From NCBI GenBank assembly GCA_902596165.1, contig CACJSU010000001.1, positions 1 through 64,000 of the forward strand: a DNA stretch of 64,000 nucleotides. Direction: 5' to 3'. Below are positions 1,720-27,843 of the stretch, one piece after another. Position 1 is the stretch's first letter, and each line of letters opens with the position of its first letter. The position numbers and the translations under genes were made by a program. The notes beneath the pieces were generated by a model, which did no database searches, was not told the DNA's origin, and worked only from the letters and a program-made list of their open reading frames with translations. This stretch comes from an uncultured SAR86 cluster bacterium. GTDB taxonomy: Bacteria > Pseudomonadota > Gammaproteobacteria > Magnimaribacterales > D2472.

Positions 1720-3367
1720 CCATTGTATTTTTAGATTTATCTATTAAAACATGTTTCATTAATTTCCCAGAAGCATTTCTTGGTAAAGGTGTATCAATTA
1801 TTTTCCATTTAGAAGGTACTTTAAAATCCGCTAAATCTTTACCAACCCATACTGATAATTCGGAATCACTCAACTGAGAATTTTTAGTTGATACTATCGC
1901 CATAACTTCTTGGCCCAAATCATCATGTGGTATACCAATCACAGCTGATTCCTCAACATCTTTATGAGAATCTAAAATTAATTCAATCTCTTGAGGATAA
2001 ACATTCTCAGCACCTCTTAAAATAAGATCTGTCCGTCTTGATGAGATAAAATAAAGTGAGCCTCTCTTATGCCCCCAGTCTCCAGTGCGTAACCACCTAT
2101 CACTAGTAAGAGCAGCCGCAGATGCTTCTGGGTTATTGTAATAGCCAAGCATAACCGAGGGACTTTGGACATATATCTCACCTTCTACAGAATCTGCTGT
2201 AACTTTCTTACCCTCTTCATCTCTTAATTCAATTTTAATACTCGGCATGGATTGTCCGGGAGAAGAAGGTTCCTCTTTGAGGGTTTCCCCCCAATTAATA
2301 ATAGTTATAGCGCCTGATTCAGTGAGCCCGTAACCATAACCAAAACTGTACTCTGAGTTAGGGAAAACTCCCTTTGTCCTTTCGATCAGTTCAGGAGGCA
2401 TAGGCGCTCCACCGCCACCAACAACTAAGACACTTTCAAGTTGTAAGCTTTTTGCTTCAGCCTCATCTAACAATCTCTTAAGCGCTGTTGGAACAGCCCC
2501 GCCCCAAGAGGTAACACTAAATTTTTGTATTAATTCAATCGCCCTATCTGCTAAAAATCTTCCGTCATACACCAAGGTTGTAGAGCCTGCAAATAAGCTG
2601 GTTACAGCACCGGCTGATAAACCAGAAACATGAAATAGAGGAGATGTGAGTAAGTTGGTTGGGGTGTTCTTTGACCAATCAATCCCGTAACTTGATGAAT
2701 GTTGAGAAACAGCTGCACCTTGAAGCATCTGTAATGTTGAATTAGCGATCATGGATCGATGCGAGGTCATCACACCCTTAGGCGTTCCTGTTGTCCCAGA
2801 GGTATATAAAAGACAAGCACACTCATCTTCATCTATACGAACAAAAGACTTTAGTTCTTGTTCATATGAAGTTAAATCTAAATCCTCAAAAATTAAGGTT
2901 GGATGTTTTACTTGATCAGCAATCCTATCAAATCGTTTTTGATCAGAAACTATAACATTAGGATCACCAGCATCTATGGCCTTGATAGCTTCCGAGCCTT
3001 TCCACCACCCATTCAAACCGCAAGCGATCGCACCAATGCTCACAGTAGCCCAGAAAAATATAATCCATTCAGGACAATTAGCAGCATAAATAGCAACCCT
3101 GTCTCCAGTTTTAACATTATGTTGTGATTGCAAAATATGAGCTGCTTTTTTTACCAATGTTAGATGTTGCGTAAAACTGATAACTTTATCTTGATAGATC
3201 AAATAAGGTTTTTCGCCATGACTAGCTGACAGCTCAATAAAATCCACTAATGATCTAGGTCGATTTTTAAAAACATCCATTTCTACACCAAGAACATTTT
3301 CTCGATGAATTTCAAAAAAAGATTGGCTCTCTACTAGGGCTTGTATATATTTGTCAGAATGCATCAT
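1703..3367 (-). CDS. AMP-dependent fatty/steroid-acid CoA ligase
   Basis: A 554-residue ANL-superfamily acyl-CoA synthetase that activates a carboxylic acid through an acyl-adenylate to its CoA thioester. The P-loop motif LLYTSGTTGTPKGVM lies at residues 186-200. The A5-type YGYGLTESG motif is in the middle, the hinge-region TGDWG follows, and the C-terminal catalytic lysine is in LPRNASGKLMK (about residue 535). It is the first gene of a leftward operon: ligase, DUF35, DUF35, SCP2 thiolase. This order fits activation followed by CoA-level chain cleavage. The substrate cannot be read from sequence; with these partners a sterol or terpenoid side-chain acid is a reasonable guess. A 161 bp AT-rich spacer (3368-3528) separates it from the divergent SDR and presumably carries both promoters. 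Confidence 0.9.
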   Translation of the reverse strand: MMHSDKYIQALVESQSFFEIHRENVLGVEMDVFKNRPRSLVDFIELSASHGEKPYLIYQDKVISFTQHLTLVKKAAHILQSQHNVKTGDRVAIYAANCPEWIIFFWATVSIGAIACGLNGWWKGSEAIKAIDAGDPNVIVSDQKRFDRIADQVKHPTLIFEDLDLTSYEQELKSFVRIDEDECACLLYTSGTTGTPKGVMTSHRSMIANSTLQMLQGAAVSQHSSSYGIDWSKNTPTNLLTSPLFHVSGLSAGAVTSLFAGSTTLVYDGRFLADRAIELIQKFSVTSWGGAVPTALKRLLDEAEAKSLQLESVLVVGGGGAPMPPELIERTKGVFPNSEYSFGYGYGLTESGAITIINWGETLKEEPSSPGQSMPSIKIELRDEEGKKVTADSVEGEIYVQSPSVMLGYYNNPEASAAALTSDRWLRTGDWGHKRGSLYFISSRRTDLILRGAENVYPQEIELILDSHKDVEESAVIGIPHDDLGQEVMAIVSTKNSQLSDSELSVWVGKDLADFKVPSKWKIIDTPLPRNASGKLMKHVLIDKSKNTMVEEDE

Positions 3368-3528
3368 TGGGATTTTACTATCTTATAAATGCATCCATCA
3401 ATCAACGAGTATCAACTAGATTTTTTTTGTCAATGATTCTAAAAAATATTCCAACATTGTTCGTGAACTCATGATTCGTTATAGTTGATTAGATACAATG
3501 AAAGAACTAAATTTTATATAGAAAGATC

Positions 3529-4293
3529 ATGGCAGATAAAAACACACAGCCATTAGCTGTAATCACAGGTGGTGCCTCAGGCATTGGCTTAAGTACGGTG
3601 AAGCGATTTTTAGATGAGGGCTATGAAGTACTGATACTCGATGCTAATAAAGATGCGGGAGAGCAATCAGTAAATAATCTTAAATCAGATACTTGCAATA
3701 TTAATTTTGCACATATCGATATTACAAACCATGCTCAAATAGATTCAGTTTTTGCCGACTTGCATGCTAACAATCGTCCAGCCCATGTACTAGTGAATTG
3801 TGCCGGTATCAGCCCCGCCTTGAACCCATTGCATCAATATTCAGTGGAGGAATGGCATAGAACCATCGATATTAATTTGCATGGTACTTTTTATGCCTGT
3901 CGAGAGTTCTTAAAACTGGCAACTGAGCAAAAGATTGATGCAGGAGCAATTGTAAATGTTGCCTCGATCATGGGAGTAAGAGCGAGTGGAGCCCAAGCAC
4001 CCTATGCAGCATCGAAGCATGCAGTGGTGGGTTTAACCAAATCAATCGCTCAAGATTATGCCACCATGAACATCAGAGCCAATGCCATTGGTCCAGGTGT
4101 CATTGATACACCCATGAATACCGAATTAATGAAAGATGAAAACATCATGCAATACATGCTACAACGCATTCCCATGAATCGAGTTGCAACATCAGACGAA
4201 GTAGCCAACTTAATTTATTTCTTAGCATCATCCGAAGCATCTTATATAACTGGATCCTACTACCCTATTGATGGTGGGTATCTTGCAAGCTGA
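3529..4293 (+). CDS. Short-chain dehydrogenase/reductase (classical SDR)
   Basis: A 254-residue classical SDR with NAD(P)-binding TGGASGIG (residues 13-20), an NCAG variant of NNAG near 90-93, and the triad Ser146, Tyr159, Lys163 (YAASK). The C-terminal TGSYYPIDGGY is typical of FabG-like alcohol/3-ketoacyl dehydrogenases. It is the first gene of a rightward pair with the next SDR, which begins inside its last codons, so the two are cotranscribed. It faces the thiolase/DUF35/ligase operon, which points to a hydroxy/keto step on a related intermediate. The substrate is unknown. Confidence 0.88.
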   Translation: MADKNTQPLAVITGGASGIGLSTVKRFLDEGYEVLILDANKDAGEQSVNNLKSDTCNINFAHIDITNHAQIDSVFADLHANNRPAHVLVNCAGISPALNPLHQYSVEEWHRTIDINLHGTFYACREFLKLATEQKIDAGAIVNVASIMGVRASGAQAPYAASKHAVVGLTKSIAQDYATMNIRANAIGPGVIDTPMNTELMKDENIMQYMLQRIPMNRVATSDEVANLIYFLASSEASYITGSYYPIDGGYLAS

Positions 4294-5107
4294 TATTTTT
4301 ACCAACAAAACTGCTTTAATTACTGGCGCTGCCAGTGGCATTGGCAGAGGCCTAGCATTGCATGCTGCAAAACTTCAAATGAATGTTGTCTTAATGGACC
4401 TCAACGCAGATGGTTTAAATGAGACGCATAGCCTGATGACTGAGTGTCCTTCCATGATCATCCATTGCGATGTATCTAACTTAGAAGACTTTTCAAAAGC
4501 GAAAGAAAAAATTGCAAGTGAGTTTGGCACAGTTCATTTCCTGTTTAATAACGCAGGAATCTTTTTAGAAGGTCGAGCCTGGAAAGCAGACCAAAAAAAC
4601 TGGCAACGAATTATTGATGTAAATTTGATGAGTGTCATTTATGGCTTAAATCTGTTTGTTGATGAAATGGTTGCCAGCCAAGAGCGTTGTCACATTATCA
4701 ATACATCATCCATGGCAGGTATCATCGTTGGCCCTGCCCTTGCTCCTTACACAACCACCAAGCATGCAGTTGTCGGTTTAACCCGAACCTTGCACGAGGA
4801 CCTAGCAGACAATGACAAAGTGGGAGTATCTGTGCTTTGTCCTGGATTAGTTCAAACCAACATCATTGAAAGAGATCACCTGGGCTTAGATCTTGACGAA
4901 TCCTCAATTGACCAACACGAAAGCGCCAAGAATAATGCTCAATGGCTTGCTGATGGTGTTAAAGAAGGCATGAGTCCTGAAGACTTAGCTACCATTGTTT
5001 TTAAGAAAATTGAAAACAATGAATTTTGGATATTGACTCATCCAGAGTTCGTAGGAGTTTACTCAGGTTACTCAACAGAACTTATTGAATCATCAACCAA
5101 AGAATAA
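4271..5107 (+). CDS. Short-chain dehydrogenase, second of an overlapping pair
   Basis: About 278 residues. The cofactor motif TGAASGIG is at about residues 18-25 and NNAG near 94. The active site uses Ser147 or Ser148 of NTSSMAG, Tyr160 and Lys164 of YTTTK. It belongs to the SDR group with an extended C-terminus that follows substrate-binding PGLVQTN. The frame is open from a TTG at 4268, but the ATG at 4271 is the better start; a TTG at 4283 is another option. Either way it overlaps the preceding SDR, so coupled translation is likely. It ends 3 bp from the convergent phytase gene. Confidence 0.86.
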   Translation: MVGILQADIFTNKTALITGAASGIGRGLALHAAKLQMNVVLMDLNADGLNETHSLMTECPSMIIHCDVSNLEDFSKAKEKIASEFGTVHFLFNNAGIFLEGRAWKADQKNWQRIIDVNLMSVIYGLNLFVDEMVASQERCHIINTSSMAGIIVGPALAPYTTTKHAVVGLTRTLHEDLADNDKVGVSVLCPGLVQTNIIERDHLGLDLDESSIDQHESAKNNAQWLADGVKEGMSPEDLATIVFKKIENNEFWILTHPEFVGVYSGYSTELIESSTKE

Positions 5108-5110
5108 AAA

Positions 5111-6157
5111 CTACTTACTTTTATTAATTGATTTAAGAATGGGATTAAAAGGAACAATTTTAAAGTTTTGATTCTTCAGCTCTTCTCCATCATAGTTATA
5201 ACCGTCCTGAGCGACCATTAAACCCTTAGAAAATTTTCCTCTGAGATTGTAGTTTGTAACGTCAATGCCATCGGTTTCTGATGTGCCATCAATGCCTTTT
5301 GGGTCATCGTCAATGGTAAAACTTGAGATAAATTCGTGAGGATACATTCGATTATAAACGTTGTATTTATTATCTCCTTGGGATGAAAGTAAGATATAGC
5401 CCTCTTTTTCAGAAGTTTTATAGATTGTAAGTCCCTCTGGATCACCGCCAATATTTCCCTCTCGAGAATCCACAATAAAGGGATTTTCAAATGGAAATTC
5501 ATTATTTAAGTTGTAGGCTTTTAAAACACCATTCACCTCCTCCTCTGAAATAAATACCGTCTTATTTTCATCATCAAAAACACAGCCTTCTGATTCACCT
5601 CCATTGCTGAAAGTACCTATAAGTGTTCGAGTCTGAGGTACCCACAACTCAACTCGAGGACCTTTATCCTCTGTAATGAAAACGATCGGAACTCCATCAA
5701 TCAAGCCGGCACATATACCATAAACATCTATGTTAGTTTGAATGGTCATTGACCTAGCACCAATACCGAAAAGATTACCTGATTGCGGAAGATTATTAAA
5801 AAAATCTTGCTGATTAAATTCCCAAAACTCAATTGATTTAGCTGTTCTATTTGACGCAGCCACATAAATTTTATTATCAACCTGTCTTACATCAATATTA
5901 TTTATTTCACCCAGCGCATCATATGATATTTTTTTTCCAGAAAGATCATATGAATAAACTCCTGCTCGCTTATCAGTTCCAAGAATTATTGACTCCTTTG
6001 GGTTTCTATAATCAATAAGTATTGCCGGGTCATCTGCAGCATCGCCACTAGTTGTAACAGGATCCGTCTCAGCAATCGCAACGATAGAGTTATTATCGGA
6101 ACAACCCACGAAGAAGAAAATATTTAGTATTAGGGATAATTTTAGAAATTTAGACAT
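5111..6157 (-). CDS. Beta-propeller phytase (3-phytase), lipoprotein
   Basis: A 348-residue protein with a lipoprotein signal (hydrophobic segment then FFFVGC, lipidated Cys19). The mature part carries hallmark segments of beta-propeller phytases: ETDPVTTSGDAADDPAI near residues 30-46, ILGTDKRAGVYSYDLSGK near 58-75, GDPEGLTIY, and DDDPKGIDGTSETDGIDV near the C-terminus. These Asp-rich loops bind calcium and phytate in the family. The enzyme releases phosphate from inositol phosphates, here probably tethered to a membrane and facing the periplasm or exterior. It is the last gene of the pit-porin-phytase operon, 38 bp after the porin. The assignment is strong and the context (phosphate uptake) agrees. 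Confidence 0.9.
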   Translation of the reverse strand: MSKFLKLSLILNIFFFVGCSDNNSIVAIAETDPVTTSGDAADDPAILIDYRNPKESIILGTDKRAGVYSYDLSGKKISYDALGEINNIDVRQVDNKIYVAASNRTAKSIEFWEFNQQDFFNNLPQSGNLFGIGARSMTIQTNIDVYGICAGLIDGVPIVFITEDKGPRVELWVPQTRTLIGTFSNGGESEGCVFDDENKTVFISEEEVNGVLKAYNLNNEFPFENPFIVDSREGNIGGDPEGLTIYKTSEKEGYILLSSQGDNKYNVYNRMYPHEFISSFTIDDDPKGIDGTSETDGIDVTNYNLRGKFSKGLMVAQDGYNYDGEELKNQNFKIVPFNPILKSINKSK

Positions 6158-16130: not shown

Positions 16131-17327
16131 TTATCCTAAAGCCATGCTATTCATCTGCATGATGGGTAATAAAATAGCTAAAACAATTAATAAAATTATG
16201 CCGCCACCAAAAATTATAACCAAAGGTTCAAGTAAAGATAAAACAGTTGATCTTTTACTTTCTATTTCGCCTTTCATATATTGTGCAACTTTTTCAAACA
16301 TGAATGTTAAATTTCCTGACTTATAGCCACTTGAAAGAAGTTGTAAAAATAAGGAAGGGAAAATACTGGCCTCTCTGAGTGATTGAATGAAGTCTTTGCC
16401 CTCTACCAACTGAACCCTGGCATCTTCAACAGATTTAGCGATGTATTTGTTGCCTATGACAACGCTAGCTTGCTGCATAGAAACATCCAAGTTTAAGCCT
16501 GACTTCATCATCAGATGCATCACTCTTGAAAAACGTTCAACCTCTGCATTTAATATAAATGCACCAATAAGGGGGATTTTTAAAAATCTTCTATGAATTA
16601 TGATTGCTTTTTGATCATTTTGAATTAAATGTTTGTATAAAAAAAAGCCGCCTAAAATTAGCAAAAAAAATGATAATAGAATTAATACAGAATAATTTGA
16701 TACACCCATTAAGACTGCCGTCAAAGTTGGTAGTTGCGCGCCTGCACGAACAAATTGATCAACAACTTGAGGCATGACAAATGTTAAGAGAGCAAAAACC
16801 ACTCCCACTGAAAAGACCATTAAAATCATGGGATATGCTAATGCTGAAATGACTTGCTGTCTTACCAATGCAGATTCTTCAAGGTAATCTGCAAGATTGC
16901 TAAAAGCAATATGCAAGTTCCCTGCAGCATCTCCAGCTGCAACAAGCGATCTATAGGTTTCATTGAAGATGGATGGATGTGAGGACATTGCTTCAGCAAT
17001 TCTAGAGCCTTGAAGAATCTCATCTCTTACTGCATGCAATGCTTCAGAAAGAGACTTATCTTCAACTTCAAGAGCAATAGATTTTAAAGTTTCATCAATG
17101 GATATACTAGAATCAAGTAAAGTTGCAATTTGTCTAGTAGCAAACAGTAATTGTTTTTGGGATACCCTAACCTTTAAAAATTGATTTCTATTAGTTTTAC
17201 CTAAAGATAATGGTGTTAAGTTTGATGCTTTGATTTGCTGTCTCGCAGCACGTTCTGATTCAGAGTTTAAAATCCCATTAACTTTTTTTCCAGATTCATT
17301 GATTGCAATGTATTTATAAGTTGGCAT
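16131..17327 (-). CDS. gspF: Type II secretion inner-membrane platform protein GspF
   Basis: A 398-residue polytopic protein with two T2SF domains and three membrane segments (about residues 168-190, 210-235 and 370-392). MPTYKYIAINESGKKVNG at the N-terminus and LLDSSISIDETL are characteristic of GspF. It couples the ATPase to the pseudopilus. It overlaps gspE by 14 bp. Confidence 0.95.
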   Translation of the reverse strand: MPTYKYIAINESGKKVNGILNSESERAARQQIKASNLTPLSLGKTNRNQFLKVRVSQKQLLFATRQIATLLDSSISIDETLKSIALEVEDKSLSEALHAVRDEILQGSRIAEAMSSHPSIFNETYRSLVAAGDAAGNLHIAFSNLADYLEESALVRQQVISALAYPMILMVFSVGVVFALLTFVMPQVVDQFVRAGAQLPTLTAVLMGVSNYSVLILLSFFLLILGGFFLYKHLIQNDQKAIIIHRRFLKIPLIGAFILNAEVERFSRVMHLMMKSGLNLDVSMQQASVVIGNKYIAKSVEDARVQLVEGKDFIQSLREASIFPSLFLQLLSSGYKSGNLTFMFEKVAQYMKGEIESKRSTVLSLLEPLVIIFGGGIILLIVLAILLPIMQMNSMALG

Positions 17328-18810
17328 CTTGATGGTTTTGAACTCTTAAAAGTTCTTCATATGAAGTTAAACCGTCACGTAAAAGTTGTGACGAGGATAA
17401 GTCTAAGGATAGGTTTTCTTTAAAAGCTGATTCAGCTAACTTTGCCTCAGAGGCTTCGTCATGTATCAAGGCTTTTAATTCATCAGAGATATTAATGCAC
17501 TCGGCAAGAGCAATCCTGCCTTTGAAACCTGTGTGATTGCAGTTTGCACATCCAACAGCCTGATAGATATTTTCGTTTTTCTCAAGTTGAAACTCTTTTT
17601 GGATTGTGGCTGACGGCTTCACGGGGGTTTTGCAATCTTCACATAGTCTTCGAACAAGTCTTTGGGCGATAACCACTCGTATGCTTGATGATAAAAGATA
17701 TGACTCAATACCCATGTCCCTTAGTCTAGCAATGGCTCCAATAGCACTATTGGTATGAATGGTAGAGAGAACTAAATGCCCTGTTAAACTTGCCTGAATA
17801 GCAATTTTAGCAGTTTCTATATCTCTAATTTCTCCTACCATGACTATATCGGGATCTTGACGCAGGATTGATCTTAGACCTGAAGCAAAATCGTATCCAG
17901 CTTTATTGTTAACTTGAGTTTGACCAATTCCTGGCAGAGTGTATTCAATAGGATCTTCAACGGTAAGGATATTTTGTGAAGTATCGCTTATGTGTCTTAG
18001 GCCGGAATACAATGTTGTTGTTTTCCCAGAGCCGGTTGGACCGGTAACTAAGATAATGCCTTCTGAAAGTTGCAAAGCATTTTTATAGTTTCTTAAGATT
18101 GAATCTGGCAAACCTAAATCACCAATATTGATTTGCGCTGCCTGTTTATCCAATAACCTTAAAACAACTCTTTCGCCATAGGATGATGGCAAAGTAGAAA
18201 CTCGAACATCAATTTTTTTTGCCCCTAGTGATAGGGAGACCCTCCCATCTTGAGGCTGTCTTCTTTCGGCTATATCCAATCGAGCAATAATTTTTAAGCG
18301 CGAAATAATAGGAGCTGAAAGCCTAGAATCGTGAGTCAAGACTTGTCGTAAAATACCGTCAACCCTATACCTAATAATGAAATTTTCTTCATAAGGTTCA
18401 AAATGAATATCTGATGCTCTCTCTTTGATGGCTTGACTTATTACTCCATTAATCAGTTTAATAATTGGAGCATCATTTGCTCCGCTTAATAAATCCTCAG
18501 TTGGAGCTAATGTATTTGCAAATGATTGCAAATCAAAGTCCTCTGAAAGGCTTGCATCACCCAATCCACTATCATCGTTAGCTGAATAATATTCAGTTAA
18601 TAATTGATCAAATTCAGTTGGAGTACATGTTTGAGATTTAAAATGATTAGCAAGAAAACGATAGAGCTCTTGAAATAAATCTTTTGAAAGAGGCTGCTCT
18701 GATATAACTTGAGCTCGTTGATCTTTTTCAAATGCAATCACTCTTTGAGTTTTTGCGAATTCATATGGTAGCAAGGGACTCTTTTGGGCAACAACCTGAT
18801 TCTTCGTCAT
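17314..18810 (-). CDS. gspE: Type II secretion ATPase GspE
   Basis: A 498-residue cytoplasmic secretion ATPase. The Walker A VTGPTGSGKTTTLYSG is at residues 255-270. The Asp box (ILTVEDPIEYTLPG), Walker B (QDPDIVMVGEIRD) and His box (GHLVLSTIHTN) are all present. The zinc-binding tetracysteine, CEDC then CANC, follows. The N1E domain is present but short. It powers pseudopilus assembly, docking on GspL and GspF. There is a 3 bp gap from gspD. Confidence 0.96.
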   Translation of the reverse strand: MTKNQVVAQKSPLLPYEFAKTQRVIAFEKDQRAQVISEQPLSKDLFQELYRFLANHFKSQTCTPTEFDQLLTEYYSANDDSGLGDASLSEDFDLQSFANTLAPTEDLLSGANDAPIIKLINGVISQAIKERASDIHFEPYEENFIIRYRVDGILRQVLTHDSRLSAPIISRLKIIARLDIAERRQPQDGRVSLSLGAKKIDVRVSTLPSSYGERVVLRLLDKQAAQINIGDLGLPDSILRNYKNALQLSEGIILVTGPTGSGKTTTLYSGLRHISDTSQNILTVEDPIEYTLPGIGQTQVNNKAGYDFASGLRSILRQDPDIVMVGEIRDIETAKIAIQASLTGHLVLSTIHTNSAIGAIARLRDMGIESYLLSSSIRVVIAQRLVRRLCEDCKTPVKPSATIQKEFQLEKNENIYQAVGCANCNHTGFKGRIALAECINISDELKALIHDEASEAKLAESAFKENLSLDLSSSQLLRDGLTSYEELLRVQNHQDANL

Positions 18811-18813
18811 AAA

Positions 18814-20655
18814 CTATTGAGTAAGGTCTAAGATATTTTTGTTAGATGATCCTATGATTTTTTCTGCATTGATATAATTGTACTTCTCTCCCGAAAGAGA
18901 AGAAACATCAGCTGAGTCCATTAAGATTGTGGGTCTTAAAAATACCATAAGATTTCTCTGCACTCTAGATTCAGCAGATGAACTAAAGAGTCTCCCAAAA
19001 ACCGGAATAGAGCCAAGCAGTGGAACTTTAGAGACGCTTTCTTGAAGGTCGTCTTCATTTAAGCCTCCTAAAACTATCATCTGATTGTTATCAACCAAGA
19101 CAGTTGTTTCAATGCTTCTTTTGTTTGTAATAAGATCTGCTGTTCCTGTTAAAGGGCCAACCACACCAGAGACCTCTTGTTTTATCTCCAAAATTACAGA
19201 ATTACCTTCATTAATTTGTGGCGTAATAGAAAGTTTTATACCAACCTCTTGACGTGAAGTTGTGCGAAAAGGATTAGCATTATTTGAGCCAAGGCTTTCA
19301 CCAGTTGTAATTGGGATCTCTTGGCCTATTACTAAATTTGCAGGCTCATTATCCATCGCAATGACTGTATGTGTTGATAAGACATCTGAATTCTGATCAT
19401 CCGCAACTGCACTTATAATTCCAGCAAAGCTATCTCCGCCGCTTAAATCTCCAAACCCTGAAACCAATCCAGAGGACTGTAATAAAGAAGAAGATGCAAC
19501 ATTGCTTAATGTGGCATTTTCACCATCTTCGATCAACGATCCTGCTAATGCAACCAAATCAGGATTCGATCCATTTTGAAATCTAGTAATACCAACTGGA
19601 ACATTTCCATCCTGAGCTCCGGCAAAAATTGTTTCAACGCCCAAACTCTTTGCGGCTGTTTCAGATAGCTCAACAATGATTGCTTCTACAAGCACCTGCG
19701 CTCTTCTAATATCTAGCTTTGATACCAAATTTCTAATAACCTCAAGATTTGTTTCTTCTGAAGAGACAATCAACGAATTGGTTTCACGGTGGTGAGTAAC
19801 AATTGGTTTTTCATTATCTTCGCCAGCAAACCTAGATGAGACAGCATTAATAATGGCGGCAACTTCTTCTGCTTTTGCATACTTTAGATACAAAACAGCA
19901 ATTGATCCACCAGTTAAAGCATCTTTATCCAACGTCTTCAATGTTTCGGTAATATTATTTGTAACTACCTGATCTGCTGAGAGTATTACTGAATTTGATG
20001 GTGTGAATGGAACGGCTATAAAGTTATTTATAGTTGGATTATTCTGAGCTTTTAATCGATCAAGAATCCTTACCGCCTCAACTGACGAAAGATTATTTAA
20101 CTTAATAATCTTGATCGCTGCGCTATCATTTTGATCAATTTTTTTAAGCAACTGGCCAATCCTTTCAATGTTTGATTTTTTATCAACCAAAAGTATAGAG
20201 TTAATCGATGGGATACTTGACAGATGAGATTGCCTTCCAGTGATAGGTTTGATTTGACTGAGAATTTCTCCTGCAGCTCTATTTTTGAGAGTAAATATTT
20301 TTGTTTCTATGGAAGACTGGCTCAGTGATTCGTTTGAATCTCTGGTTGCTTCATTTTCAGGGACAATTCTAACCACTCCACCGTCTGAAAGAGCTGCAAA
20401 ACCATGCACCTGAATAGTTCTTAAATATACATCCCAAACTTGTTCAGCCGAAAGAATTGAATCAGAAAAAATTGATATTCTACCTTTAACCCTTGGATCA
20501 AGTATCAAAGTTTTTTTAGAAAATTTAGAAATATCTTGGGTGACTTTTGCTATATCTACATCTTGGTAATTAAGCAAGAAAGTTTCTTGTGCGTGAGATT
20601 GGATGGAAAAAAGAAAAAAAGGAATGAAAATTATGGATTTAATTTTTTGAATCAC
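18814..20655 (-). CDS. gspD: Type II secretion secretin GspD
   Basis: A 613-residue outer-membrane secretin. A Sec signal (ending at about residue 22, SHA) is followed by periplasmic N0-N3 domains (FLLNYQDVDIAKV starts N0). The secretin core has VLVEAIIVELSE, the gate region, and VPLLGSIPVFGRLFSSS near the C-terminus. It forms the outer-membrane channel of the T2SS. No pilotin (GspS) gene is nearby. It starts 1 bp after gspC ends. Confidence 0.95.
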   Translation of the reverse strand: MIQKIKSIIFIPFFLFSIQSHAQETFLLNYQDVDIAKVTQDISKFSKKTLILDPRVKGRISIFSDSILSAEQVWDVYLRTIQVHGFAALSDGGVVRIVPENEATRDSNESLSQSSIETKIFTLKNRAAGEILSQIKPITGRQSHLSSIPSINSILLVDKKSNIERIGQLLKKIDQNDSAAIKIIKLNNLSSVEAVRILDRLKAQNNPTINNFIAVPFTPSNSVILSADQVVTNNITETLKTLDKDALTGGSIAVLYLKYAKAEEVAAIINAVSSRFAGEDNEKPIVTHHRETNSLIVSSEETNLEVIRNLVSKLDIRRAQVLVEAIIVELSETAAKSLGVETIFAGAQDGNVPVGITRFQNGSNPDLVALAGSLIEDGENATLSNVASSSLLQSSGLVSGFGDLSGGDSFAGIISAVADDQNSDVLSTHTVIAMDNEPANLVIGQEIPITTGESLGSNNANPFRTTSRQEVGIKLSITPQINEGNSVILEIKQEVSGVVGPLTGTADLITNKRSIETTVLVDNNQMIVLGGLNEDDLQESVSKVPLLGSIPVFGRLFSSSAESRVQRNLMVFLRPTILMDSADVSSLSGEKYNYINAEKIIGSSNKNILDLTQ

Positions 20656-25353: not shown

Positions 25354-27843
25354 ATGAAGCAAAACAGAACTCTAGCATTAGTTTTATTTACTCTCATTTC
25401 TTGCGGTGGAGGTGGAGGTGGAGGCTCTAGCAGCCCCCCTGTAATCTCTCAAACTCCAACACCACCGACTCCACCTCCAAGCCTCTCATTTGATGAGCTG
25501 AAAGATCAATACGAGGGTTACTATGAGTACCAAAGCCAATGGGGCTTGAATATGATTAACGCATCCTCTGCATATGCTAGAGGAGCAACAGGTGCAGGTA
25601 TAACGATTGGAATAACTGATTCTGGATTAGACAACACCCATGTTGAAATCAGTGCAACGAGGTTATCAAACGATAGTGCTCTAAATTACTCAAATTACAC
25701 ACCAAATACCAGACAAAAAAGACATGGAACCATGGTTGCTTCAGTCGCAGCAGGAAAACAAGACAAAACAGATTTTACCCCTATGCATGGAGTAGCTTTT
25801 GAAGCAGATGTGTTATTTGTTGCTATTCAGCTCGCTGAACCAGACCCAGACTATGATCCAATTGATATTGGTGATGATGATGGATCGGGGAATGTATCTG
25901 GAGCACCCGATTTTACTGGGATTGATAATTTTTTTAGTCAACTCTTTGAAATTTATAATGACTATGATGTTGATATAGTTAATAACAGTTATGGTTATTC
26001 AGGGAATATCAATGATTATACTGAAGCTCAAGTTAGGTATGCTTTCCCAAAAACCATAGCCGAGATGTCACAAGTTGGAACTCCTGATTCAGAAAAAACG
26101 ATCTATGTTTGGGCTGCAGGTAATGCAGGAGGTTACGCTGATCAAGGGGTTGATTATTCTAGCCCTGAATTATTACCAGGAATGGCACATCACATTCCAG
26201 AAATTCAAGGTCATTCTATTGCAGTGGCATCCGTTGATGAGAATGGACAGATAAGCGACTTTTCCAGCAGATGCGGTGTTGCGCAAGATTACTGCATATC
26301 TGCACCTGGAGGCAGAATTACAGCTGCCTACCCTACCTCAACATCAGATACAGGGATATATGTCGGCAACACGAATGATGATAATTACAACAACTGTATT
26401 ACAGATAATTCTTGTTATGCAGTAACAAGCGGCACATCATTTGCTGCTCCATTTGTATCTGGGGGTCTTGCTGTAATAGCGGATCACTTTGAAGGGCAGC
26501 TTGGTAGTCAAGAGATTGTTTCAAGGCTTTTTAGCACAGCAAATAAAAAAGGAATATATGCTGATAAAGCTATTTATGGTCAAGGGCTTATGGACCTCAA
26601 TGCTGCTACAGAACCAGTTGGCCAAGTTAGCGCAATGATGTCACTAAGTTTATCTGGCCCAATGACGCCAGCAATATTTTCGAATATACAATTAACAAGC
26701 CCATCCTTTGGTGATGCTATTGCTAAAGGAATAGGAAACCATTCAGTTATATTTTTTGATGAATTAAATGCGCCTTTCAGAAGATCGCTTAGCAGTCTGG
26801 TATCTGATTATAGAGATCAAATAATCAATATGGATGGATTTGATAGTATGCAAACTCCAATTTCTCAAACTTTATTTTCTGAAGATGCTGAATTTGAAAT
26901 TGGCGGGCTTAGCACCCAAGACCTCTCTCAAGAGCTAGTTACTCCTTATCATTTACTGAATGCAAGAGCTGATAAAAATCAATTTTTTTCCTATTACAAC
27001 TATTCTAGTGACTCATTTTTCAGCCATGGAATAAATGGAAGTTGGTCGATGGGAATTTTTCAAGACCCAGAATTGAGGGCAAAAAGGAACCTAAGGTCTC
27101 AATTTAGCAACCCATGGTTAAACTTCAGCGCCGCTGGGACTACTTTTGGTTCAATCTTAAAAAGCAATGATAGATTTGATCTTGCTTTAGCGCTTTCATC
27201 AGGTAGAAATAAATTTAACACAAATGAAATTTTTGGTGAAAGAAACGCAAGCACCACTGCTCTTTTAGAAATTCAACCAAAATTCTATATGCCTTCGGTG
27301 CAATTAGGCTTAATGAAAGAAAATGATTCTAGCTTAGGGTTAAGTGGGTCAGGAGCATTTAATGGAAGCAATAATCAATTGACTTCATTCATAGGTCTTT
27401 CCAATTCAATCAATGCAATGGGTGGCAAGCTGTTTGGATCATTTTACTGGGGTCAATCTAGCAGTATTTCTAATGAACTCGGCATGATTAAATCTCTATC
27501 AAGCATAAACTCATCTGCCTTTGGAATTGGGTTCTTGAAATCATCTATTTTTAATAATAATGACTCCTTGATAATAACTATCGATCAACCTATACGACTA
27601 GAATCTGGGAGACTTCAACTAAATGTTCCTACCTACAGGACCAAAGAAAAGAATGTTCTTTTTAATTCAATAAGTTTTAATCTTGATCCTAGTGGAAGAG
27701 AAATTCATTCAAAAGTAGACTATTTAACTGCATATAAAAATATTGGTTTTGGTTTAACCTTAGGTTACAAATCAGACCCTTATCACATAAAATTTATGGA
27801 TGACTATTGGTATGCCTCATTAGGTTTTAATATAAAAATCTAA
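25354..27843 (+). CDS. Lipidated subtilisin-like serine protease autotransporter
   Basis: An 829-residue protein. The signal ends in a lipobox (FTLISC, Cys17), followed by seven glycines and a Pro-rich linker (about 20-43). The peptidase S8 domain spans about 60-420 with Asp89 (GITDSGLDN), His124 (RHGTMVAS) and Ser362 (TSGTSFAAPFVSGG). The last 280 residues look like an autotransporter beta-domain: alternating strands and a final hydrophobic C-terminus (YASLGFNIKI). Lipidated subtilase autotransporters such as NalP and SphB1 stay at the surface and process other exported proteins. It is divergent from the ligase gene with a 39 bp spacer. Confidence 0.85.
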   Translation: MKQNRTLALVLFTLISCGGGGGGGSSSPPVISQTPTPPTPPPSLSFDELKDQYEGYYEYQSQWGLNMINASSAYARGATGAGITIGITDSGLDNTHVEISATRLSNDSALNYSNYTPNTRQKRHGTMVASVAAGKQDKTDFTPMHGVAFEADVLFVAIQLAEPDPDYDPIDIGDDDGSGNVSGAPDFTGIDNFFSQLFEIYNDYDVDIVNNSYGYSGNINDYTEAQVRYAFPKTIAEMSQVGTPDSEKTIYVWAAGNAGGYADQGVDYSSPELLPGMAHHIPEIQGHSIAVASVDENGQISDFSSRCGVAQDYCISAPGGRITAAYPTSTSDTGIYVGNTNDDNYNNCITDNSCYAVTSGTSFAAPFVSGGLAVIADHFEGQLGSQEIVSRLFSTANKKGIYADKAIYGQGLMDLNAATEPVGQVSAMMSLSLSGPMTPAIFSNIQLTSPSFGDAIAKGIGNHSVIFFDELNAPFRRSLSSLVSDYRDQIINMDGFDSMQTPISQTLFSEDAEFEIGGLSTQDLSQELVTPYHLLNARADKNQFFSYYNYSSDSFFSHGINGSWSMGIFQDPELRAKRNLRSQFSNPWLNFSAAGTTFGSILKSNDRFDLALALSSGRNKFNTNEIFGERNASTTALLEIQPKFYMPSVQLGLMKENDSSLGLSGSGAFNGSNNQLTSFIGLSNSINAMGGKLFGSFYWGQSSSISNELGMIKSLSSINSSAFGIGFLKSSIFNNNDSLIITIDQPIRLESGRLQLNVPTYRTKEKNVLFNSISFNLDPSGREIHSKVDYLTAYKNIGFGLTLGYKSDPYHIKFMDDYWYASLGFNIKI
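25405..25425 (+). repeat. In-frame GGTGGA repeat encoding a seven-glycine tract
   Basis: Three and a half copies of the hexamer GGTGGA follow the lipobox cysteine codon of the subtilase gene and encode the polyglycine spacer. A C6 run lies 8 bp downstream (25434-25439). Slippage by whole hexamers would change linker length without shifting the frame. Confidence 0.7.

Follow-up and report, generated by a model that had tools for sequence, protein, structure and literature searches.

The window analysed here, the whole 64,000-nucleotide stretch of DNA from an uncultured SAR86 cluster bacterium, contains an open reading frame of 829 amino acids on the forward strand at positions 25354 to 27843, as given by the list of open reading frames and its translation. 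The SAR86 source agrees with the marine origin that the first-pass annotation had ascribed to this protein, and the N-terminal features that it had named, a lipobox followed by seven glycines encoded by GGTGGA repeats, can be read directly as LISC and as GGT GGA GGT GGA GGT GGA GGC. The gene is divided as follows, with the start of the barrel at residue 512 inferred from the strands of an AlphaFold model:

25354..25401, + strand: lipoprotein signal peptide, residues 1-16, MKQNRTLALVLFTLIS, with lipobox LISC (from the sequence)
25402..25404, + strand: Cys17, predicted lipid attachment site (C17 invariant in 8 close sequences)
25405..25425, + strand: seven-glycine tether, (GGTGGA)3 GGC, Gly 18-24 (Tandem Repeats Finder, period 6, 3.3 copies)
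25426..25527, + strand: Ser/Pro/Thr-rich spacer, residues 25-58, with a C6 run at 25434-25439 inside it (from the sequence)
25591..26586, + strand: S8 subtilase domain, residues 80-411 (PF00082, E 4.8e-36)
26587..26886, + strand: protease-barrel linker, residues 412-511, with the motif SVIFFDELNAPFRRSL (D469 invariant in alignments)
26887..27840, + strand: predicted C-terminal outer-membrane beta-barrel, residues 512-829 (AlphaFold m85184ab34de8; Foldseek and VIA-align porin matches)

The lipobox, L14-I15-S16-C17, fits the pattern [LVI]-[ASTVI]-[GAS]-C quoted in PMC8151025, and the protein would be lipidated at Cys17; a gene for Lgt is present in the same genome. All 20 of the 20 copies of the gene from this genus have a Cys at the lipobox position followed by 6 to 8 glycines, and the strict lipobox pattern is kept in 14 of them, the other 6 departing from it at position -2.

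The gene was found in 20 of 26 genomes of the genus and in 27 of 107 genomes of the family (the window's own being counted in the genus), and good matches to the protein also occur in other families of the order. Nine relatives in the genome collection, the nearest of them 98% identical, comprise seven labelled SAR86 and two labelled “Proteobacteria bacterium”. A ligase on the opposite strand, the S8 gene, an SDR, and an FAD enzyme follow one another in this order at all 18 of the loci L001-L018, one of which is the window's own. The family-level loci L020, L021, and L042-L045 keep this arrangement, which did not turn up at the order-level loci that were examined. The type II secretion genes gspF, gspE, and gspD lie at 16131-20655 on the reverse strand, about 5 to 9 kb upstream of the subtilase. 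An Omp85 (BamA-type) match is present in 24 of the 26 genus genomes, and neither Omp85 nor LolA gave a match in the window's own assembly, which is 87% complete.

The subtilase domain proposed in the first-pass annotation is recovered by Pfam as a PF00082 match (E 4.8e-36) over residues 80-411 with its catalytic residues intact. These are D89, H124, N257, and S362, to which we assign catalytic roles from general knowledge of S8 peptidases and which are invariant across 16 aligned sequences. In a PDB sequence search the closest solved sequence by far was 8E7F (1.2e-29, with the runner-up at 1.9e-7), the passenger of the Ssp autotransporter (PMC9977779). The top NCBIfam match was the autotransporter peptidase EprS, at 93.7 bits over the protease part only and with a cut-off of 1700; the second, the mycosin TIGR03921, is a non-autotransporter family and scored nearly the same (89.4 bits). 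The invariant protease cysteines C307 and C314 are close together in sequence, and closely spaced cysteines are described as usual for T5SS passengers (PMC8151025). Downstream of the protease, D469 (26758-26760) is invariant in alignments A2, A4, and A6, of 16, 16, and 31 sequences, respectively, and the linker region around it is possibly a hinge or a cleavage region. This residue is the Asp of the linker motif FFDELNAPF, and the aligned proteins in which it is invariant come from SAR86, from the class level, and from viruses.

Profile libraries gave little purchase on the C-terminal domain. At E 1, Pfam recognised nothing in the window protein apart from S8, hence no barrel, and NCBIfam showed no barrel in it either; the domain had no Pfam match above cut-off in 10 order-level relatives, and no Pfam entry came above cut-off for it in the 21 proteins scanned. 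In one class-level relative, L071, the Pfam porin family OprB was matched over this region below its threshold (1.4e-4, 21.8 bits with a cut-off of 22.9). A profile search of the PDB from A3, an alignment of the C-terminal domain, returned no match at E 10 or better, and the barrel therefore rests on fold comparison, on the C-terminal F or Y, and on this one sub-threshold OprB match.

When the full-length protein was modelled by AlphaFold with 8 close sequences, the result had a pLDDT of 29.2 and no usable fold. A second model, of residues 430-829, was built with 31 diverse sequences from the window, SAR86, and viruses, the diverse homologues having been obtained by family-alignment searches of viral contigs, and it has an outer-membrane-barrel fold at middling confidence (pLDDT 68.7, pTM 0.71). 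From model residue 74 on it contains 17 strands of at least 6 residues, and the best-predicted part runs from about model residue 246, which is about residue 675 of the protein. The last 12 long strands, residues 608-827 of the protein, are common to the shorter viral proteins according to our reading of the alignment. The top Foldseek matches are porins (Omp32 at 3.7e-4 and OmpT of Vibrio at 3.9e-4), with TM-scores of only about 0.3-0.4; over the Foldseek matches as a whole, TM-scores are about 0.2-0.4 and rmsd about 8-19. VIA-align placed OmpT of Vibrio at a Z of 14.9 over 246 residues (rmsd 4.6), with CymA (14.1), OprO (14.0), and OmpF (12-13) as further porins. The best match among predicted viral proteins, at 7.3e-10, came from an uncultured tailed phage and is itself an S8 peptidase. 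No classical autotransporter barrel is named as the aligned chain among the 50 VIA-align entries listed. These do include the BAM-EspP complex 7ye4, where the aligned chain has 785 residues and a range of 419-778 and is probably BamA and not the EspP barrel, and we do not read the missing autotransporter barrel as an exclusion. An outer-membrane barrel, with a predicted strand count of 12 to 17, is thus well supported by the modelling. Porins have 14 to 18 strands. What the first-pass annotation had offered as a guess at a beta-barrel has in this way been backed by a structure prediction, at middling confidence, and by porin matches.

Classical autotransporters carry PF03797 barrels of 12 strands (PMC9289746), and by this measure the window protein falls outside the family. 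PF03797 was not matched by the window protein at E 1, by any of 10 order-level relatives at E 10, or by any of 10 class-level and viral relatives at E 1; the same model did find its positive controls in E. coli, in Caulobacter, and in four proteins that related genomes encode away from their S8 genes. A comparison by hhalign with four PF03797 domains of related genomes gave probabilities of only 0.3-0.7%. True PF03797 barrels were seen in very large open frames (1678-3067 aa) of the related genomes G017, G032, G037, and G042. In Group 15 subtilases, a beta-helix of about 200 amino acids is thought to succeed the protease (PMC9289746). In the window protein the S8 domain is separated by about 100 amino acids from the strand with which the modelled barrel begins, near residue 512, and no beta-helix is seen in this stretch, a low-confidence part of the model. 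Set beside type Va, Group 15 subtilases, the protein thus has the S8 domain and lacks the PF03797 translocator, and it does not fall into type Vd (patatin-like, with a 16-stranded barrel and POTRA), S8 being its only Pfam match at E 1. Judged from its sequence, it is an autotransporter-like variant and a non-member by the PF03797 test, and its C-terminal domain seems to form a separate family.

This domain extends well beyond SAR86. Of 321 genomes of the class, 17 contain it by a profile of SAR86-order sequences, the window's genome being one of the 17; this order-only profile is the independent search, later profiles having been built from A4, which partly contains the sequences found. In the 16 other class genomes the domain shares one frame with S8 at 28 of 29 loci, and the exception, L099, is a 263-aa frame on a short locus with no S8 in frame. 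Among viral loci, which were picked by S8 motif with 80 relatives retained of at least 147, S8 and the C-terminal domain occur in one frame in 40 of 81, representing 35 distinct proteins. These 40 frames end in F (37), in Y (2, one of them running off its contig), or in D (1). The strict lipobox pattern occurs in 3 of the 40 (L103-L105) and a loose pattern in 10; by eye, the only convincing viral lipobox-type site is that of L108, though its LGAC is off the strict pattern.

The IMG/VR contigs with S8 and barrel are L065-L069, L100-L105, L109, L110, L113, L128, L135, L139, L143, L144, L153, L164, and L165, and their proteins are about 650-690 amino acids long, with a signal-peptide-like N-terminus by eye and mostly an F at the end. 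The S8-barrel gene of L100 is near a tail-fibre-type gene, and L065 and L069 have theirs near dioxygenase-type genes known from phages. L108 encodes, at 2773-5160, a 796-aa S8-barrel protein with an LGAC lipobox-like start and a Gly-rich stretch, on a prophage-like contig that also carries genes for baseplate, tail, and neck, and its sequence is perhaps that of a lipid-anchored version outside SAR86. The 32 named phage records that were matched, 30 of them listed, align with no more than about half of the query, in its protease part. Pseudomonas phage Y5 (L205, OQ572407) was considered as a phage carrier and rejected: the record is UNVERIFIED and unannotated and is probably bacterial DNA, its S8 gene lying within a 1013-aa frame that by eye looks like an entire bacterial autotransporter and has a molybdopterin-oxidoreductase-like gene as its neighbour. 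In the open literature, no phage-borne autotransporter was found in the titles and abstract openings of the matches listed, and a SAR86 autotransporter yielded only work on Pseudomonas.

Taking these observations together, we consider it likely that the window protein is a lipid-anchored subtilase autotransporter-like protein that acts in the manner of NalP and SphB1. The precursor would cross the inner membrane via Sec, Lgt would add diacylglycerol to Cys17, and signal peptidase II would then cut before this residue. The glycine at position +2 would, on general knowledge, route the protein to the outer membrane, where BAM would insert the C-terminal barrel and the subtilase would be carried to the cell surface. 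Lipid and flexible Gly/Ser/Pro/Thr leader could together hold the protease near the membrane, and the held protease may cut neighbouring surface proteins or environmental protein. The lipobox, the Gly run, the S8 domain with its conserved catalytic residues, the barrel fold at middling confidence, and the conservation and synteny come from calculation; we infer the lipidation, the outward passage, a later release or its absence, the substrates, and the order of events after lipidation. The reading draws on a protease closest to the Ssp passenger with EprS as the top NCBIfam match, on the C307/C314 spacing as in T5SS passengers, on a predicted barrel with porin matches fused C-terminally to S8, and on a Cys followed by glycines in every one of the 20 genus copies, together with the kept synteny, Lgt, and the Omp85 of the genus. 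Against it stand the lack of PF03797 similarity, a mycosin score near that of EprS, a strict lipobox in 14 of 20 copies, a middling barrel model with low Foldseek TM-scores and a range of strand counts, and the missing Omp85 and LolA matches in the window's own assembly.

The main rival is a protease that stays in the periplasm, where it would be held by its lipid and by a porin-like barrel serving as an anchor and would cut misfolded or imported proteins with no outward transport. It would account for the best structural matches of the model being porins and not classical autotransporter barrels, as well as for the PF03797 result, and the final leaflet of the anchor is described in PMC8151025 as unsettled even for known lipidated T5SS proteins. 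We nevertheless regard a periplasmic protease as unlikely, given that among solved structures its closest counterpart is an autotransporter passenger, that an N-terminal protease followed by a C-terminal barrel is the type Va order, and that most viral two-domain homologues have no convincing lipobox (strict in 3 of 40). A second alternative, that the protein is a surface lipoprotein exported by another route, such as a T2SS or a Slam-like factor, with the barrel in some other role, appears quite improbable. It could make use of the GspD, GspE, and GspF genes on the other strand and of a sub-threshold SlipAM match in the genome (18.3 bits with a cut-off of 22), and an esterase-type protein of the same genome combines a Cys-Gly leader with no barrel in its 344 amino acids; but a second exporter is needless for a protein with a C-terminal barrel of its own, and the conserved neighbours are metabolic enzymes, with no secretion genes among them.

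Within the favoured reading of a lipid-anchored, autotransporter-like protease, the glycine leader would serve as a flexible leash, and its coding sequence can be compared across relatives. Tandem Repeats Finder reports the array at 25405-25424 with period 6, 3.3 copies, 100% matches, and a score of 40, and as DNA it is unexceptional, being one of 24 rows in the window with a score of 30 or more. The C6 run to which the first-pass annotation drew attention is indeed present at 25434-25439, in a window where runs of six or more number 7 for C and 5 for G, but a 98%-identical relative has CCTCCT in its place. Glycines number seven in 14 of the 20 genus copies, six in 5, and eight in 1. Their codons vary freely among these copies, with three exact GGTGGA units only in the window and GGAGGC, in the same repeat style, in L010. 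Three genus pairs reach a DNA identity of 96% or more. Two of them, at 97.7%, have Gly runs of equal length; the third, L012 and L014 at 96.0%, has 6 versus 7 glycines, a difference of one codon in a GGT array and no hexamer step, and L013 and L014, at 90.2%, also differ by one glycine codon in the GGT array.

Of 60 related genomes, 53 contain a Cys-Gly5 pattern, with 141 matches in all as compared with 5 for the reversed pattern; these are pattern matches with orthologues included, of which 20 subtilase copies and one other were read as genes. In the 141 tracts, lag-two codon identity was 112 versus 87.7 in shuffles (s.d. 7.6) and strict codon alternation 16 versus 9.0, figures for which the shuffle probabilities overstate significance, the tracts including related copies. 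The window genome has one other Cys-Gly5 tract, in the leader of the 344-aa esterase-type protein mentioned above. From these sequence comparisons the glycine leader looks like a general lipoprotein feature of the lineage, kept by protein-level selection. The codon statistics run counter to a purely protein-level view, in that hexamers may now and then have been duplicated as the Gly tracts formed, a signal that related tracts make weaker than it seems. That the (GGTGGA)n array serves to vary and so tune the length of the tether, the slippage switch envisaged in the first-pass annotation, is very unlikely: the array is genuine by its period of 6 and 3.3 copies, L010 offers a second genus copy in similar style, and both codon statistics exceed the shuffles, but the array is unconserved, lengths range over 6-8 Gly with scrambled codons, close pairs show no hexamer-sized difference, and a 6-bp unit, here in only 3.3 copies, cannot shift the frame. 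Frameshifts were also considered as phase variation and rejected, their sites differing from one another, lying outside the Gly tract, and looking like sequencing or assembly errors; L038/L019 (one genome) is frame-broken near residue 398, with 7 A versus 6 in the window, and L010 near residue 60.

A pathogen-like architecture is conserved in a SAR86 genus. Subtilase autotransporters have been described as a group occurring in bacterial pathogens (PMC9977779), and a marine version in 20 of 26 genomes of one genus suggests an everyday role at the cell surface or in nutrition. The outer-membrane leaflet in which the lipid resides is unsettled for lipidated autotransporters (PMC8151025), and the SAR86 protein could serve as a non-pathogen model for this question of topology. 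Tentatively, and as a proposal that is rather less probable than its alternative, the C-terminal domain could be a translocator family dedicated to S8 proteases, with a barrel of more than 12 strands and no stalk, common to Gammaproteobacteria and tailed phages; SAR86 would have added a lipid anchor and a glycine leash, and phages would use it to put an un-anchored protease on the infected cell or to release it from there. Since the barrel has no Pfam entry above cut-off in the 21 proteins scanned, proteins of this kind are probably annotated as just “S8 peptidase” in both bacteria and phages. Most worth following is this unnamed barrel domain, which SAR86 shares with further genomes of the class and with phages.

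With NalP of Neisseria and SphB1 of Bordetella, both reported as lipidated (PMC9977779, PMC9289746), the window protein has in common a lipobox, an N-terminal S8 domain, and a C-terminal barrel, in a comparison made at the level of layout. It differs from them in having no PF03797 and no visible beta-helix of about 200 amino acids, the latter in a low-confidence region. The likeness to NalP and SphB1 put forward in the first-pass annotation accordingly holds for the layout of lipobox, subtilase, and barrel and does not extend to membership, the barrel having no PF03797 match. Phase variation of nalP comes from a poly-C tract of 6-15 bp that shifts the reading frame (PMC3723659), whereas the window gene has a frame-neutral, unconserved hexamer. 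Ssp of Serratia (8E7F) and EprS of Pseudomonas are similar to the window protein over the protease part only, and in contrast to them it carries a lipobox and a different barrel. The class-level and viral S8 proteins have the same two domains as the window protein, a linker with the invariant Asp, and a homologous C-terminal domain; where their N-terminus is visible it is mostly, by eye, an ordinary signal peptide and not a lipobox with glycines, the exception being L108 with its LGAC and Gly-rich stretch.
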